A DNA stretch of 64,000 bases, from the NCBI RefSeq assembly GCF_913061305.1, contig NZ_CAJXST010000007.1:62001-126000 (forward strand), written 5' to 3'. A program made the translations under genes and the position numbers. This stretch comes from an uncultured Porticoccus sp. Lineage in GTDB: Bacteria > Pseudomonadota > Gammaproteobacteria > Pseudomonadales > Porticoccaceae. Positions within the stretch are counted from its first letter, which is position 1. Every line of letters begins with the position of its first letter. Shown piece after piece: positions 27,041 to 56,390 of the stretch. The notes beneath the pieces are model-generated. The model was not told the DNA's origin. It did no database searches and worked only from the letters and a program-made list of their open reading frames with translations.

Positions 27041-28777
27041 ATGAAACAAACCGATACATTGAAGGGCTTGGCCAAACGTCTGGTAACAGATCAGTTGCTG
27101 GAAGAAAATGTTGCCGTGCAGGCACTGGCAGAATGTGAAAGCGACAAGTCCAACCTGGTTCATTACCTGACCCACAATAATCTGCTGGCCCCCAGCCTGA
27201 TCGCCGCGGTTGCGGCCAATGAGTTTGGCACACCACTCTACGATCTCTCGGCCCACAACATCGATGCCAGCCCGAAGGAGCTGGTCGAGAAGAAGTTGAT
27301 TCGCAAACACCAGGTATTGCCCCTGTTCAAACGGGCCAACCGCCTGTTTCTGGCAGTGAGCGACCCCACCAACCACCAGGCGGTGAGCGAGGTGCGTTTT
27401 CAGACCGGCCTGTCCGTTGAGCTGGTACTGGTGGAGCACGACAAACTGGAGCGGGCACTGGATGCCTACCTGCATGAGCAGGATGAACACGAAATGGGCG
27501 ATGCGCTCGGCACCATGGATGATGTGCACCTCGACGACCTGGATATCGAGGCCGTCGACGAAGATAAGAAAGGCAGCGGCACCGGCATTGACACCGCCGA
27601 TGTGGACGATGCCCCGATTGTGCGGTTTATCAATAAACTGCTACTGGACGCCATCAAGCAGGGGTGTTCGGATATTCACTTTGAACCCTACGAAAAAGTC
27701 TACCGGGTGCGGTTCAGAACTGACGGTATTCTTCGCGAGGTCACCAAGCCCCCGGCCAATCTGGCCCCGCGGATGGCGGCTCGTCTGAAGGTGATGTCGC
27801 AGATGGATATTTCCGAGCGCCGCGTACCCCAGGATGGCCGGATTAAACTGCGGATTTCAAAGAACCGGGCCATCGACTTTCGGGTGAACACCCTGCCCAC
27901 CCAGTTCGGTGAGAAAATCGTACTGCGGATTCTCGACCCCGCCAGTGCCCAGGTGGGTATTGAAAACCTCGGCTATGAAGAAGACCAGAAGCAGATGTAT
28001 CTGGACGTGCTGAACCAGCCACAGGGCATGATTCTGGTAACCGGCCCCACTGGTAGTGGTAAAACCGTCTCGCTCTACACCGGCCTGAATATTCTCAATA
28101 CCACGGAACGCAATATCTCCACGGCCGAGGACCCGGTGGAAATCAACATGCCCGGCATCAACCAGGTGCAGATCAATTACAAGGTAAAACTCACCTTCCC
28201 CGAAGCACTGCGGGCTTTCCTGCGACAGGATCCGGATGTGATCATGGTGGGTGAGATCCGCGACCTGGATACCGCTGAAATCGCCATCAAGGCAGCCCAG
28301 ACCGGTCACCTGGTATTGTCCACCCTGCACACCAATAGTGCGCCGGAAACCCTCAACCGTCTGCTCAATATGGGCGTGCCCGCGTTTAACGTGGCCACCT
28401 CGGTGAACCTGATTATTGCCCAGCGGTTGGGCAGACGACTCTGCGTGCACTGCAAAAAACCCGCTGACGATATACCCCAGAAGATTCTGATCGATGAGGG
28501 TTTTGACACCATAGGCCGCCCCCTGGAGGAGCTGACCCTGTTTCACCCGGTGGGCTGCCCAAAATGCACCAACGGCTACAAAGGACGGGTGGGGATTTAC
28601 GAGGTGTTGAAAGTGACACCCAAAATAGCCCGGCTCATCATGGAAGGCGGCAATTCGATTGAAATTGAACAGGCGGCCATTGAAGAAGGCTTCAGAACTT
28701 TGCGCCAGTCGGCACTTCGTCGTGCGGCCGAGGGTATAATCAGCCTGGAAGAGGCTAATCGGGTAACAAAGGACTAA
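27041..28777 (+). CDS. pilB: type IV pilus assembly ATPase PilB
   Basis: A 578-residue hexameric extension motor. The N-terminal GSPII_E-type domain (LTHNNLLAPSLIAAVAANEFG) occupies about residues 1-150; Walker A is GPTGSGKTVSLYTG near 340, the Asp box TAEDPVEI near 365, Walker B QDPDVIMVGEIRD near 395 and the His box AAQTGHLVLSTLHTN near 420. The zinc-type tetracysteine motif is seen as CVHCKKP and CPKCTNGYKG near 470-515. An acidic linker (DLDIEAVDEDKK) sits between domains. PilC starts 3 bp after the stop codon. It acts at the inner-membrane base of the pilus to polymerise PilA. Confidence 0.96.
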   Translation: MKQTDTLKGLAKRLVTDQLLEENVAVQALAECESDKSNLVHYLTHNNLLAPSLIAAVAANEFGTPLYDLSAHNIDASPKELVEKKLIRKHQVLPLFKRANRLFLAVSDPTNHQAVSEVRFQTGLSVELVLVEHDKLERALDAYLHEQDEHEMGDALGTMDDVHLDDLDIEAVDEDKKGSGTGIDTADVDDAPIVRFINKLLLDAIKQGCSDIHFEPYEKVYRVRFRTDGILREVTKPPANLAPRMAARLKVMSQMDISERRVPQDGRIKLRISKNRAIDFRVNTLPTQFGEKIVLRILDPASAQVGIENLGYEEDQKQMYLDVLNQPQGMILVTGPTGSGKTVSLYTGLNILNTTERNISTAEDPVEINMPGINQVQINYKVKLTFPEALRAFLRQDPDVIMVGEIRDLDTAEIAIKAAQTGHLVLSTLHTNSAPETLNRLLNMGVPAFNVATSVNLIIAQRLGRRLCVHCKKPADDIPQKILIDEGFDTIGRPLEELTLFHPVGCPKCTNGYKGRVGIYEVLKVTPKIARLIMEGGNSIEIEQAAIEEGFRTLRQSALRRAAEGIISLEEANRVTKD

Positions 28778-28780
28778 TCC

Positions 28781-29989
28781 ATGGCAACAACGGCGCAGGT
28801 CTATACCTACAAGGGCAAGGATAAAAGAGGCAAGCCCATTCAGGGCGAGTTGAAGGCGAGCAGCGCGGCGATGGTAAAAGCCCAGCTCCGCAAGCAGGGC
28901 ATTGCCGCCAACCGGGTAAAGAAAAAGGCCAAGCCCTTGTTCGCTGGCCAAAAGCCCGTCAAACCCCAGGATATCGCGATATTCACTCGTCAGCTGGCCA
29001 CCATGATGCGCGCCGGTGTGCCACTGGTACAGAGCTTTGATCTGGTCGGCGAAGGTGCCGATAAAGAGAGTCTGCGCGACATCATTTATACCATTCGCGA
29101 TGACGTCTCCTCAGGTATCAGCCTGGAGGGGGCTCTGCGCAAACATCCCAAACACTTTGATGACCTGTTTTGCAGCCTGGTTGGAGCCGGCGAACAGGCT
29201 GGTGCGCTGGAAACCATGCTGGACCGGATTGCCACCTACAAGGAAAAAACTGAATCCCTGAAAGCCAAAATCAAAAAAGCACTCACCTACCCGATTGCCG
29301 TTGTTCTGGTGGCGGTGATTGTGACCGGGATACTGCTGGTCAAAGTGGTGCCGGTATTTGCCCAAACGTTCAGCAATTTCGGGGCCGACCTGCCCGCGTT
29401 TACCCTGTTCGTACTGGGTCTGTCGAATACGGCCCAGGAGTGGTGGTTTATCTGGCTAATCAGCCTGGTCGCTTTCTTTGTGATCTTCCGCGAGGCCAAG
29501 CGGCGCTCAACCAGGTTTGATGCGTTCATTGATAAATACATGCTGAAAGTGCCGGTGGTGGGCAATATTCTCTACCAGGCCATTATCGCCCGGTTCGCCC
29601 GCACACTCTCCACCACCTTTGCCGCCGGGGTACCGCTGGTGGATGCCCTCACGTCGGTGGCGGGGGCGGCGGGCAATGCTGTTTACCGGGAAGCCATATA
29701 CAAGGTTCGGGACGATGTAACCACCGGGATTCAGCTTCATCAGGCCCTCAAGACAACCAACAAATTCCCTGTGATGCTGCTGCAAATGACCTCAATCGGT
29801 GAGGAGTCCGGCGCACTGGATGACATGCTGGAGAAATCTGCGGTGTTCTACGAGGAGGCGGTGGACAATGCCGTGGATAACCTGACCACGCTGTTGGAAC
29901 CGATGATCATGTCGGTTCTGGGGGTTCTGGTGGGCGGTCTGCTGATTGCCATGTACCTGCCGATCTTCAAACTTGGCGCGGTAATCTAG
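28781..29989 (+). CDS. pilC: type IV pilus inner-membrane platform protein PilC
   Basis: A 402-residue GspF-family protein. N-terminal YTYKGKDKRGKPIQGELKA, two repeated GspF domains (FTRQLATMMRAGVPLVQSF near 68 and FARTLSTTFAAGVPLVDAL near 270), and membrane spans near 170-195, 220-240 and 370-400 are all normal. PilC anchors PilB/PilT beneath the pilus. Its TAG stop (29987-29989) coincides with the left TA of the inserted MITE-like element; removal of the element would restore a TAA stop at the same position. Cotranscribed with pilB. Confidence 0.95.
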   Translation: MATTAQVYTYKGKDKRGKPIQGELKASSAAMVKAQLRKQGIAANRVKKKAKPLFAGQKPVKPQDIAIFTRQLATMMRAGVPLVQSFDLVGEGADKESLRDIIYTIRDDVSSGISLEGALRKHPKHFDDLFCSLVGAGEQAGALETMLDRIATYKEKTESLKAKIKKALTYPIAVVLVAVIVTGILLVKVVPVFAQTFSNFGADLPAFTLFVLGLSNTAQEWWFIWLISLVAFFVIFREAKRRSTRFDAFIDKYMLKVPVVGNILYQAIIARFARTLSTTFAAGVPLVDALTSVAGAAGNAVYREAIYKVRDDVTTGIQLHQALKTTNKFPVMLLQMTSIGEESGALDDMLEKSAVFYEEAVDNAVDNLTTLLEPMIMSVLGVLVGGLLIAMYLPIFKLGAVI

Positions 29990-30254
29990 GGCCTGTTAAC
30001 ACTAATTGGATTGCCACTGTTGTGGCTAAAAAAGCGCCAATCAAGGCGCGAGGAGCGTAGTTTGGTGATTCTAAATAAGAGACGAGCAACGAAGAGTGGC
30101 GTTTTTTTAGCCGCAACCCTTTGGGTTGGGGACATTTTTGCCTCCAGTGTTGTTGAAATTTGCTCATTTAGAGTGACTAAACTTTGCTCATTCCGCCTAG
30201 CCGGAGGCAAAAATGACCGCCAGCAGAGATAATCCAATTAGTGCTAACAGGCCC
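29989..30254. mobile_element. MITE-like element between pilC and pilD, flanked by TA duplication
   Basis: A 266-bp non-coding element with near-perfect 24-25-bp terminal inverted repeats: left GGGCCTGTTAACACTAATTG (from 29989), right CAATTAGTGCTAACAGGCCC (ending 30254), extending inward to GATT/AATC. Each end is bordered by TA (29987-29988 and 30255-30256). Inside are two more inverted repeats: 30019-30039 with 30097-30117 (19 of 21 pairs) and 30133-30145 with 30203-30215 (13 of 13), plus a short GCGCC/GGCGC hairpin at 30034-30050. There is no transposase gene. TA duplication and terminal repeats suggest mobilisation by an IS630/Tc1-mariner type transposase located elsewhere. Short open frames inside the element are not credible genes. 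Confidence 0.82.
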
Positions 30255-30260
30255 TAACCG

Positions 30261-31124
30261 ATGCCTGACATGCTGGGTTTATCCGTTGCGCCAGTGCTGG
30301 CTGTCAGTCTGGTACTGGGTTTGCTGGTGGGCAGCTTTATCAATGTGGTGATCTACCGCCTGCCCCGGCAACTGGCCGCCAGCTGGCGGCGGGACTCCCA
30401 GGAGTTTCTGGAGATTGAACCCGATTCAGAGGCCGTGCCGGAACCGCTCAATGTGGTGTTTCCCGCTTCGCACTGCCCGCAATGCGGTGCTCCGATTAAA
30501 GCCATTCACAATATCCCCCTGCTGAGCTACCTCCTGCTACGCGGCCGCTGTGCGCACTGTCGGTCTGCCATTTCCCTGCAATACCCGCTGGTTGAACTGG
30601 TTTCCGGCCTGCTGACCCTGGTGGTGGTGTATCAGTTTGGTCTGACGGCGACCACCGCACTGGCATTACTGTTCAGCTGGAGCCTGCTGGCGCTCACCGG
30701 CATTGATTTCAACGAGCAATTGCTGCCGGATGGCATTACCCTGCCCCTGCTGTGGCTGGGCTTGCTGGTCAACGTCAACGGCCTGTTCACGTCGCTGGAC
30801 AGCGCGGTAATTGGTGCGGCTGCGGGCTATCTCAGCCTCTGGTCGGTGTTCTGGCTGTTCAAGCTAGTGACCGGCAAGGAGGGCATGGGCCATGGCGATT
30901 TCAAACTGCTGGCGGCGCTGGGTGCCTGGCTGGGCTGGCAACAATTGCTGTTGATCGTTTTACTGTCTTCGCTGGTGGGCGCGGTGGTGGGCCTGCTGAT
31001 GATTATTTTGCTGGGACGGGACAGGCAGATACCCATTCCATTTGGCCCCTACTTGGCAGCGGCTGGCTGGATTGCCCTGCTCTGGGGCGAAACCTTGACC
31101 AGCAGTTACCTGACGCTGTTCTGA
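30261..31124 (+). CDS. pilD: prepilin peptidase / N-methyltransferase PilD
   Basis: A 287-residue inner-membrane aspartic protease that removes the pilin leader and methylates the new N terminus. The cytoplasmic tetracysteine domain is CPQCGAPIKAIHNIPLLSYL plus CAHCRS (residues 74-105). Catalytic aspartates are in GIDFNEQLLPD (near 155) and GHGDFKLLAALGAWLGW (near 212). About eight hydrophobic segments. The ATG follows the right end of the inserted element by 6 bp, so the natural translation-initiation region and coupling to pilC have been altered. The enzyme would also process type II secretion pseudopilins if the genome has them. Confidence 0.95.
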   Translation: MPDMLGLSVAPVLAVSLVLGLLVGSFINVVIYRLPRQLAASWRRDSQEFLEIEPDSEAVPEPLNVVFPASHCPQCGAPIKAIHNIPLLSYLLLRGRCAHCRSAISLQYPLVELVSGLLTLVVVYQFGLTATTALALLFSWSLLALTGIDFNEQLLPDGITLPLLWLGLLVNVNGLFTSLDSAVIGAAAGYLSLWSVFWLFKLVTGKEGMGHGDFKLLAALGAWLGWQQLLLIVLLSSLVGAVVGLLMIILLGRDRQIPIPFGPYLAAAGWIALLWGETLTSSYLTLF

Positions 31125-31221
31125 CCGATACTGTCGACGAACGTTGTTCGTTGATGTTTAGCTCGATTATGCTTTTCTCCGTAATTAATATGTTTTCAAC
31201 CTTCCTGTGAGTGACCGCTTC

Positions 31222-31830
31222 ATGTTTACCGTAGGTCTGACCGGCGGCATCGGCAGTGGCAAAAGCGCCGTGGCACAGTTATTTCGACAGCACGGTATCA
31301 CCGTGGTGGATGCCGATCAGGCGGCGCGCGAAGCCGTGCTGCCCGGTTCACCGGCATTGGCGAAAATCCGCGCCCATTTTGGGGCCGCGGTGCTGAAGGA
31401 GGACGGCTCCCTGAACCGCGCCTGGTTGCGGGACGCGGTGTTTGCCGATCCCGAACAACGACAGTGGCTGGAAGCTCTGTTACACCCGGCCATTGCAGTA
31501 CTGATAGACGAGGCCCTGAATAGCGCCACCAGTCCCTACGCCATTCTGGAATCGCCCCTGCTGCTGGAAACCTCACAGCACGCATTGGTGGATCGGGTAT
31601 TGGTGGTGGATGTCAGCGAGGCGACCCAGGTGGCCCGTGCCGTCCGGCGTGATGGCAGCGACGAGGCACAGATTCGCGCCATTATGGATGCCCAGATCAG
31701 TCGCCATGGGCGACTCGGCAGGGCGGACGACATCATTGATAACGATGGTCCGCTGGCGGCATTGGAACCGGCCGTGGCGGCGCTGCATCAGCGCTACCTG
31801 GCGCTGGCAGGCCAGCGCACCGGACAATAG
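31222..31830 (+). CDS. coaE: dephospho-CoA kinase
   Basis: A 202-residue P-loop kinase that phosphorylates the 3'-hydroxyl of dephospho-CoA, the last step of CoA synthesis. Walker A GLTGGIGSGKSAV is at the N terminus, VVDADQAAREAV near residue 30, the lid-type LLLETSQHALVDRVLVVDV near 115-135 and the terminal region with ADDIIDNDG near 175. The ATG at 31222 was chosen because GLTGG normally lies close to the start; an in-frame GTG at 31207 is possible. The pilD-coaE-yacG order is common in gammaproteobacteria. Confidence 0.94.
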   Translation: MFTVGLTGGIGSGKSAVAQLFRQHGITVVDADQAAREAVLPGSPALAKIRAHFGAAVLKEDGSLNRAWLRDAVFADPEQRQWLEALLHPAIAVLIDEALNSATSPYAILESPLLLETSQHALVDRVLVVDVSEATQVARAVRRDGSDEAQIRAIMDAQISRHGRLGRADDIIDNDGPLAALEPAVAALHQRYLALAGQRTGQ

Positions 31831-55802: not shown

Positions 55803-56005
55803 CAGAGAAAACACATACGAAGATTTTTTTGATTAATTTTTGACCACCTTGCAGGAGGCGTAAACGGGTTAATCCCGGCACCGTCTTGCTGGCGGCGTTG
55901 GGCGACTGCCCTTGAGAAAACACTGAGATTCGAGGCAAACGCGGTCACTGACCATGTTGTCAATTCGAGTCGATGAACAGGCTGTTCAGAAAGGGGGATA
56001 AAAAA

Positions 56006-56390
<385 letters not shown>

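Follow-up and report, generated by a model that had tools for sequence, protein, structure and literature searches.

The window, the whole 64,000-nucleotide stretch of DNA analyzed here, comes from an uncultured Porticoccus sp. and includes pilC and pilD, which are separated by a 266-bp element. The genes around the element were named from Pfam (T2SSE, T2SSF, A24 peptidase, CoaE, and pilin). The element (29989-30254) starts with GGGCC, ends with GGCCC, and is flanked on each end by TA (29987-29988 on the left and 30255-30256 on the right), confirming the description in an earlier note on this DNA. The inverted ends that the note put at about 24 bp are present; their length was underestimated, as the imperfect arms (29987-30022 and 30221-30256) span 36 nt and are 86% complementary, with mismatches. 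The three internal hairpins it listed are a fair description of the interior, which is made up of two inner inverted pairs (30019-30042/30094-30117 and 30130-30145/30203-30218) and a small hairpin between the two. A similar 19-nt motif is found in the two inner arms, A and B, in opposite orientation (30060-30078 on the plus strand with 3 mismatches; 30164-30182 on the minus strand, exact). When up to 3 mismatches are allowed, the 21-mer end is found at just the two sites in the window, compared to a mean of 0.00 in 100 shuffles. Relative to shuffled sequences, the element has a stable predicted fold both as RNA (-122.7 kcal/mol, z -9.85) and as DNA (-65.6, z -9.47). The features of the locus are the following:

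28781-29989, plus strand: pilC (T2SSF family; Pfam T2SSF, 1.9e-68), with the stop TAG at 29987-29989
29987-29988, no strand: left target TA copy, read from the sequence (39 of 60 independent insertions are flanked by TA on each side)
29989-30254, plus strand: MITE of 266 bp with IS5-family (IS427-like) ends, based on its copies, the ends of the proposed parent IS, and no conserved frame
29987-30022, plus strand: left inverted repeat, its first 20 bases (with the TA) identical to IS ends
30221-30256, minus strand: right inverted repeat, its first 20 bases with one difference from the left end
30019-30117, plus strand: arm A hairpin with an A-run/T-run stem, based on inverted pairs and fold (terminator-like match at 30049-30034, minus strand)
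30130-30218, plus strand: arm B, the second hairpin, based on inverted pairs and fold
30255-30256, no strand: right target TA copy, reading TAACCGATG on the right side of the element, from the sequence
30261-31124, plus strand: pilD (prepilin peptidase, A24; Pfam)

The pilC frame reads to GAVI-TAG, wherein the stop is formed by the target TA and the first G of the element. Insertion in the pilC stop codon with preservation of a TAG, as previously proposed, is therefore upheld. The same proposal held that the initiation region of pilD had been replaced, which goes too far: the pilD ATG, which begins four bases past the right TA, and the codons after it are intact, and just the bases directly upstream differ. 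Reading frames were compared in 45 copies of 265-266 bp, and no more than 2 copies are open in any single frame; none is conserved, and the frames present within MITE copies (median about 69 aa) are chance frames. A promoter scan of 28700-31300 found 0 sites compared to 1.4 expected, while 4 terminator-like sites were found compared to 3.0 expected, one of them within arm A. At the Rfam gathering threshold, the whole window contains only an RNase P RNA (class A; 56004-56390, minus strand) and no family falls on the element; the only two sub-threshold matches on the element are to microRNA and snoRNA families (E 0.013 and 0.81) and are read as chance.

Element copies and their target sites

The element family is found at four places in the window's own genome (2.68 Mb, 16 contigs). 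The other copies are a 190-bp copy at C7:14844, a full copy at C1:134214 that is 77% identical, and a diverged 301-bp copy at C2:101204; each of the four places is preceded by an in-phase open frame, 174 codons or longer, that terminates at the junction TAG. Matches at E ≤ 1e-3 are present in 19 of 58 genomes searched (own genome included), one of the 19 being partial and from outside the bacterial family. Within that family, a survey of 112 genomes (own included), in which up to six candidates were scored per genome, gave matches at E ≤ 1e-20 in at least 19 genomes from 7 of 14 genera. The single-contig relatives G036 and G120 carry the element at 17 and 20 distinct places, respectively (20 and 22 matches at E ≤ 1e-8, of which 3 and 2 are second matches on the same copies). 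The earlier expectation that further copies would share these ends and the TA duplication is borne out in the own genome and in relatives. These copies, along with the empty site described below, refute the idea of a chance palindrome that is not mobile, in favor of which no point was found and which retains practically no probability.

Judged by PilC, the closest relatives with a name are Cellvibrionales bacterium UBA2511 and Porticoccus sp. NORP89, the latter of which has the same pilC-pilD insertion and is 100% like G012 over pilC and pilD. No match to the element was found in plasmid and phage collections. A literature search returned no description of the family among the matches listed, as judged by title or start of abstract, which is not proof that the family is unpublished.

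Element ends without a partner in the surrounding stretch of sequence that was covered (L173-L181, L183-L188, L285-L304) also occur in G036, G023, G022, and G029. Several lie directly after a long open frame (L173, L177, L184, L303), and some (L288, L293) resemble diverged full copies. G023 contains a recurrent unit of about 30 bp, TA-GGGCCTGTTAACACTAATGGAACCG(A)CCC-TA (L183, L184, L187); deletion remnants and micro-elements are suggested alternatives for the unpaired ends and 30-bp units. In G017, near-identical ends lie close to the ends of contigs, at distances of 39-276 bases and often of about 140 (L306, L310-L313, L315-L317, L319-L321, L324-L327, L330-L334). Such a pattern would be produced if the element had recently multiplied and its copies had fragmented the assembly.

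The ends could be paired in 65 copies (one alternative pairing was dropped), corresponding to 60 sites that are independent by flank. TA is found on both sides at 39 of these sites and is lacking on at least one side at 21. The targets of the 39 are CTAG (11), CTAA (10), TTAA (6), TTAG (5), and other (7), such that 32 conform to YTAR. With ends that begin TA-G, the element leaves a stop codon in place when it inserts into TAA or TAG. Of the 60 sites, 26 have their longest open frame (100 codons or more) closed by the junction TAG, 5 and 7 have it in the other phases, and 22 have no such frame; not all of the 26 rejoin to a stop, as some are without the far TA and one would read TAC. Under a stricter rule, 24 of 81 sites in a larger set are at stop codons (83 copies, less one fragment and one contig-edge copy). 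These counts, and the four of four places in the own genome, could be taken as a sign of specific targeting of stop codons or gene ends by the transposase or the element. However, among the non-coding sites of the window, 18 of 57 YTAR and 9 of 16 CTAG are already stop codons. The stop-site excess is roughly as expected: with YTAR targeting and the loss of insertions in coding DNA, about a third of sites should be stop codons. A special preference for stop codons was dropped against this baseline and is considered highly improbable.

Filled and empty junctions

The pilC-pilD junction is readable in 12 genomes of the genus, with the unreadable junctions of G002 and G013 left out. Two are filled (G000, the window's genome, and G012) and 10 are without the element. 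Relatives without the insertion therefore exist, as anticipated; the exact empty junction that had been predicted, atcTAAccgATG, occurs in none of the 10. The three closest genomes without the element instead have TAG, 8 nt, and ATG, and the predicted TAACCGATG is absent. With the insertion carried by 2 of the 12, the element is not a conserved RNA with the same sequence in all relatives, an alternative that the earlier note had itself named. The spacing between pilC and pilD is 271 bases with the element compared to 8-31 nt in relatives. The short spacers of G009 and G005 (TAGGTCCGTTG) and of G015 (TAGGCCTGTTG) look like the start of the element end, and each may be either a scar left by deletion or the original junction; pilB, pilC, and pstB disagree on species order. 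Since the insertion is common to G000 and G012, it is older than their split or was exchanged between them.

Over window positions 28801-29800, compared with L072, pilC of G012/NORP89 is 64-91% identical, while pilB and pilD are near 91%, which suggests that this pilC may have been partly replaced by recombination. In G002:C107 (L182:1-1083), a permease-PilC fused frame is followed by the element and then exbB. This pilC-element-exbB junction was set aside, as the upstream frame is a permease joined to PilC and the draft contig is probably mis-joined.

A second shared insertion is located between pstB and phoU (PhoU named by Pfam; PstB inferred from an ABC domain and its neighbor). Here, 16 of 18 loci are readable (G006 is counted twice), 4 of which are filled, in 4 species, and 12 of which are not. 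The empty site of G009 reads GGTTAAGGAG compared to GGCTAG-element-TTAAGGAG at the filled site or, in a longer reading, GGTTAAGGAGCAGAGGATG compared to GGCTAG-element-TTAAGGAGCTGAGGATG. These sites form a nearly clean before/after pair in a TAA stop; relative to the filled site, the empty one has an additional T along with one or two substituted bases. The G012 copy at this locus is 169 bp (L070:1477-1645, G012:C22); arm A was lost between two TTGCCGC repeats, and the remainder is identical to the copy in the window's genome.

An insertion sequence with matching ends

An IS630-type parent, guessed from the TA duplication, was dropped, as an IS5-family IS has matching ends. G022 contains a multi-copy IS with an end that differs from the element end by one base in 18, and a 98-aa fragment of this IS is an IS5-family DDE transposase. 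Six of 293 genomes of the order searched with this fragment have a match at E ≤ 1e-22, and a matching 808-bp IS5-family (IS427-like) IS was found in other families of the order. Both ends are available for seven IS copies, five of which are 808 bp plus TA and the others 790 and 805 bp. The IS ends are identical to TAGGGCCTGTTAACACTAAT at 20 of 20 bases on both sides in three of the seven copies and on one side in two more; the MITE matches the IS at 20 of 20 bases on the left and 19 of 20 on the right. The MITE and the IS share just these 20-28 terminal bases and have unrelated interiors, and thus the MITE is not simply a deleted IS. The IS has two separate frames, with DUF4096 and DDE_Tnp_1 above cut-off; NF033580 matches both frames, each alone below its cut-off. 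The last transposase codons lie in the IS end, and the stop consists of TA and the next host base, as read directly in L335. The frame is matched to its last residue in six of seven copies (not L340), and the first host base past the right TA is a G in six of the seven and an A in the other.

The element has terminal inverted repeats, a target-site duplication, dispersed copies, no transposase or conserved frame, and ends that match an autonomous element, all of which are MITE criteria. Interpretation of the pilC-pilD insertion as a MITE-like mobile element is supported. Very probably, it is a non-autonomous MITE that is moved in trans by an IS5-family (IS427-like) transposase, inserts into YTAR with duplication of the central TA, and recreates TAG at TAA or TAG stops. 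This explanation draws on the observed element, its ends and target, its other copies, the relatives without the insertion, and the autonomous IS with matching ends. Some observations run against it. The DDE_Tnp_1 gene, which is present in 4 of 10 genomes checked, is absent from the window's genome, G012, G036, G120, G026, and G023, even though G036 and G120 carry 17 and 20 element copies. Furthermore, the bases common to MITE and IS are limited to the termini, the predicted pilC-pilD empty site was not found in the 10 genus genomes, TA is missing on at least one side of 21 of 60 sites, and the pstB-phoU empty site is not an exact counterpart of the filled one.

The proposed mechanism is as follows. 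First, a passing IS5-family transposase would move the MITE in trans into a YTAR site, and the central TA of the target would be duplicated. Next, owing to the G that follows TA in the ends, a TAA or TAG stop codon hit at its TA would be rebuilt as TAG, with the upstream protein unchanged. Copies in coding DNA would be lost while those in stop codons and between genes would remain, and many stop-codon copies presumably survive because they are harmless there. Finally, the hairpins between pilC and pilD would weaken coupling and may attenuate transcription into pilD, with the PilC and PilD proteins intact.

The element is a clear example of an already known element type and not a new kind of system. 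Similar to the IS427 group of the IS5 family, it has the left 20 bases of an IS of such type, a TA duplication, and a YTAR target, and in the matching IS the target completes the stop codon. In contrast to that group, the MITE has no transposase gene and an interior unrelated to the IS. The IS427-like label is a putative one set by features: the group is marked by a length of about 0.8 kb, a 2-bp duplication, and two overlapping frames, and the IS has 808 bp, TA, and two separate frames. The stop codon of the IS870 transposase is reportedly completed by its target, going by the title of a 1993 paper by Fournier et al. (cited in PMC6471742); the likeness to IS870 is in stop-codon behavior as given by that title.

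In PMC2229807, the ERIC (IRU, RU-1) elements are described as small and non-coding, with inverted ends, TA termini, and a stable fold, all of which the present element shares, and ERIC copies are located between co-transcribed genes. ERIC differs in having 127 bp and 7 contiguous pairs, compared to 266 bp and 36-nt imperfect arms, and in its sequence and hosts. According to the same text, Correia (NEMIS) elements resemble the present one in having inverted ends of about 24 bp with TA, and differ in size (107/155 bp), host (Neisseria), and sequence (PMC2229807).

Fold, conservation, and possible retention

The interior was probed by comparing 24 aligned copies, in which 33 of 88 predicted pairs have changed on both sides. 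Shuffled alignments give 16.6 such pairs (none of 500 reaches 33) and slid controls 3-8; related sequences can exceed shuffles without structure, and a structure derived from the alignment on which it is scored usually outperforms its own slid copies, such that the controls alone are not proof. The covariation is taken as strong because the gap over the controls is large. Many of the pair changes swap A-T/T-A or G-C/C-G. Among 76 copies of at least 260 bp, G.U and A.C mispairs number 39 and 53 in the end stem, 77 and 21 in arm A, and 36 and 26 in arm B, with column 37 dominating the arm A counts and column 160 those of arm B. For the end stem, maintenance at the DNA level accounts for the counts no less well than selection on RNA does; those of arm A are compatible with an RNA role. 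Overall, the fold of the interior covaries strongly and shows no clear signature of an RNA strand.

Conservation was assessed between G000 and G012, leaving out a pilB row that is out of register (5% identity). Their shared pilC-pilD element is identical at 258 of 266 positions (262 of 270, or 97.0%, with the TAs), compared to 46 of 58 nearby four-fold sites in pilD and 35 of 50 in pilC. Overall, identity is 82.7% at four-fold sites and 92.4% in aligned intergenic DNA; the true intergenic background is lower still, as 34% of intergenic sites failed to align. The element ranks second of 15 intergenic blocks (76-99%). It exceeds all aligned intergenic DNA with p = 0.003 and ten cleaner blocks (89.8%) with p = 5e-5, where the intergenic set derives from an open-frame gene list, probably with missed coding stretches, and the cleaner set leaves out four such blocks. 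In this pair of genomes, intergenic DNA evolves more slowly than four-fold sites do, and the case for conservation of the element is therefore weakened but not removed. The shared copy is somewhat better conserved than its surroundings.

These results bear on whether the pilC-pilD copy, and others, are now retained under selection as a regulatory RNA element (terminator, attenuator, or mRNA stabilizer). Consistent with such retention are the both-side changes, the conservation of the shared element, the pstB-phoU copies (97-100% against 86-94%), the orientation of copies (34 sense and 19 antisense), and the G.U excess in arm A. However, stems are not spared by recent substitutions (pairs are broken by 3 of 8 and by 3 of 7, with 3.9 and 3.5 expected), G.U is not in excess in the end stem and stands at 36 to 26 in arm B, and the orientation bias has p = 0.053 (16 compared to 7 at stop sites, p = 0.09). 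Moreover, 10 of 12 readable genus genomes do without the element at pilC-pilD, and no Rfam family reaches its gathering threshold on it. Retention as a regulatory RNA is thus considered unlikely. A wider scenario, similarly doubtful, is that the interior of the MITE family is kept whole across genera by selection or by arm-to-arm DNA correction, that the stop-rebuilding ends provide a nearly cost-free operon 3' end, and that some copies (pilC-pilD, pstB-phoU) have been retained as attenuators that set the ratio of neighboring proteins.

Mobilization in trans by an IS5-family transposase would link a known oddity of some IS5-type elements, wherein the target supplies the stop codon of the transposase, to the places in host genomes where their small relatives persist: one and the same end closes the transposase frame and re-closes host genes. 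At pilC-pilD, two operon genes have been separated with both proteins intact, and the family offers a well-sampled fold for telling DNA-level upkeep of a palindrome from RNA function.
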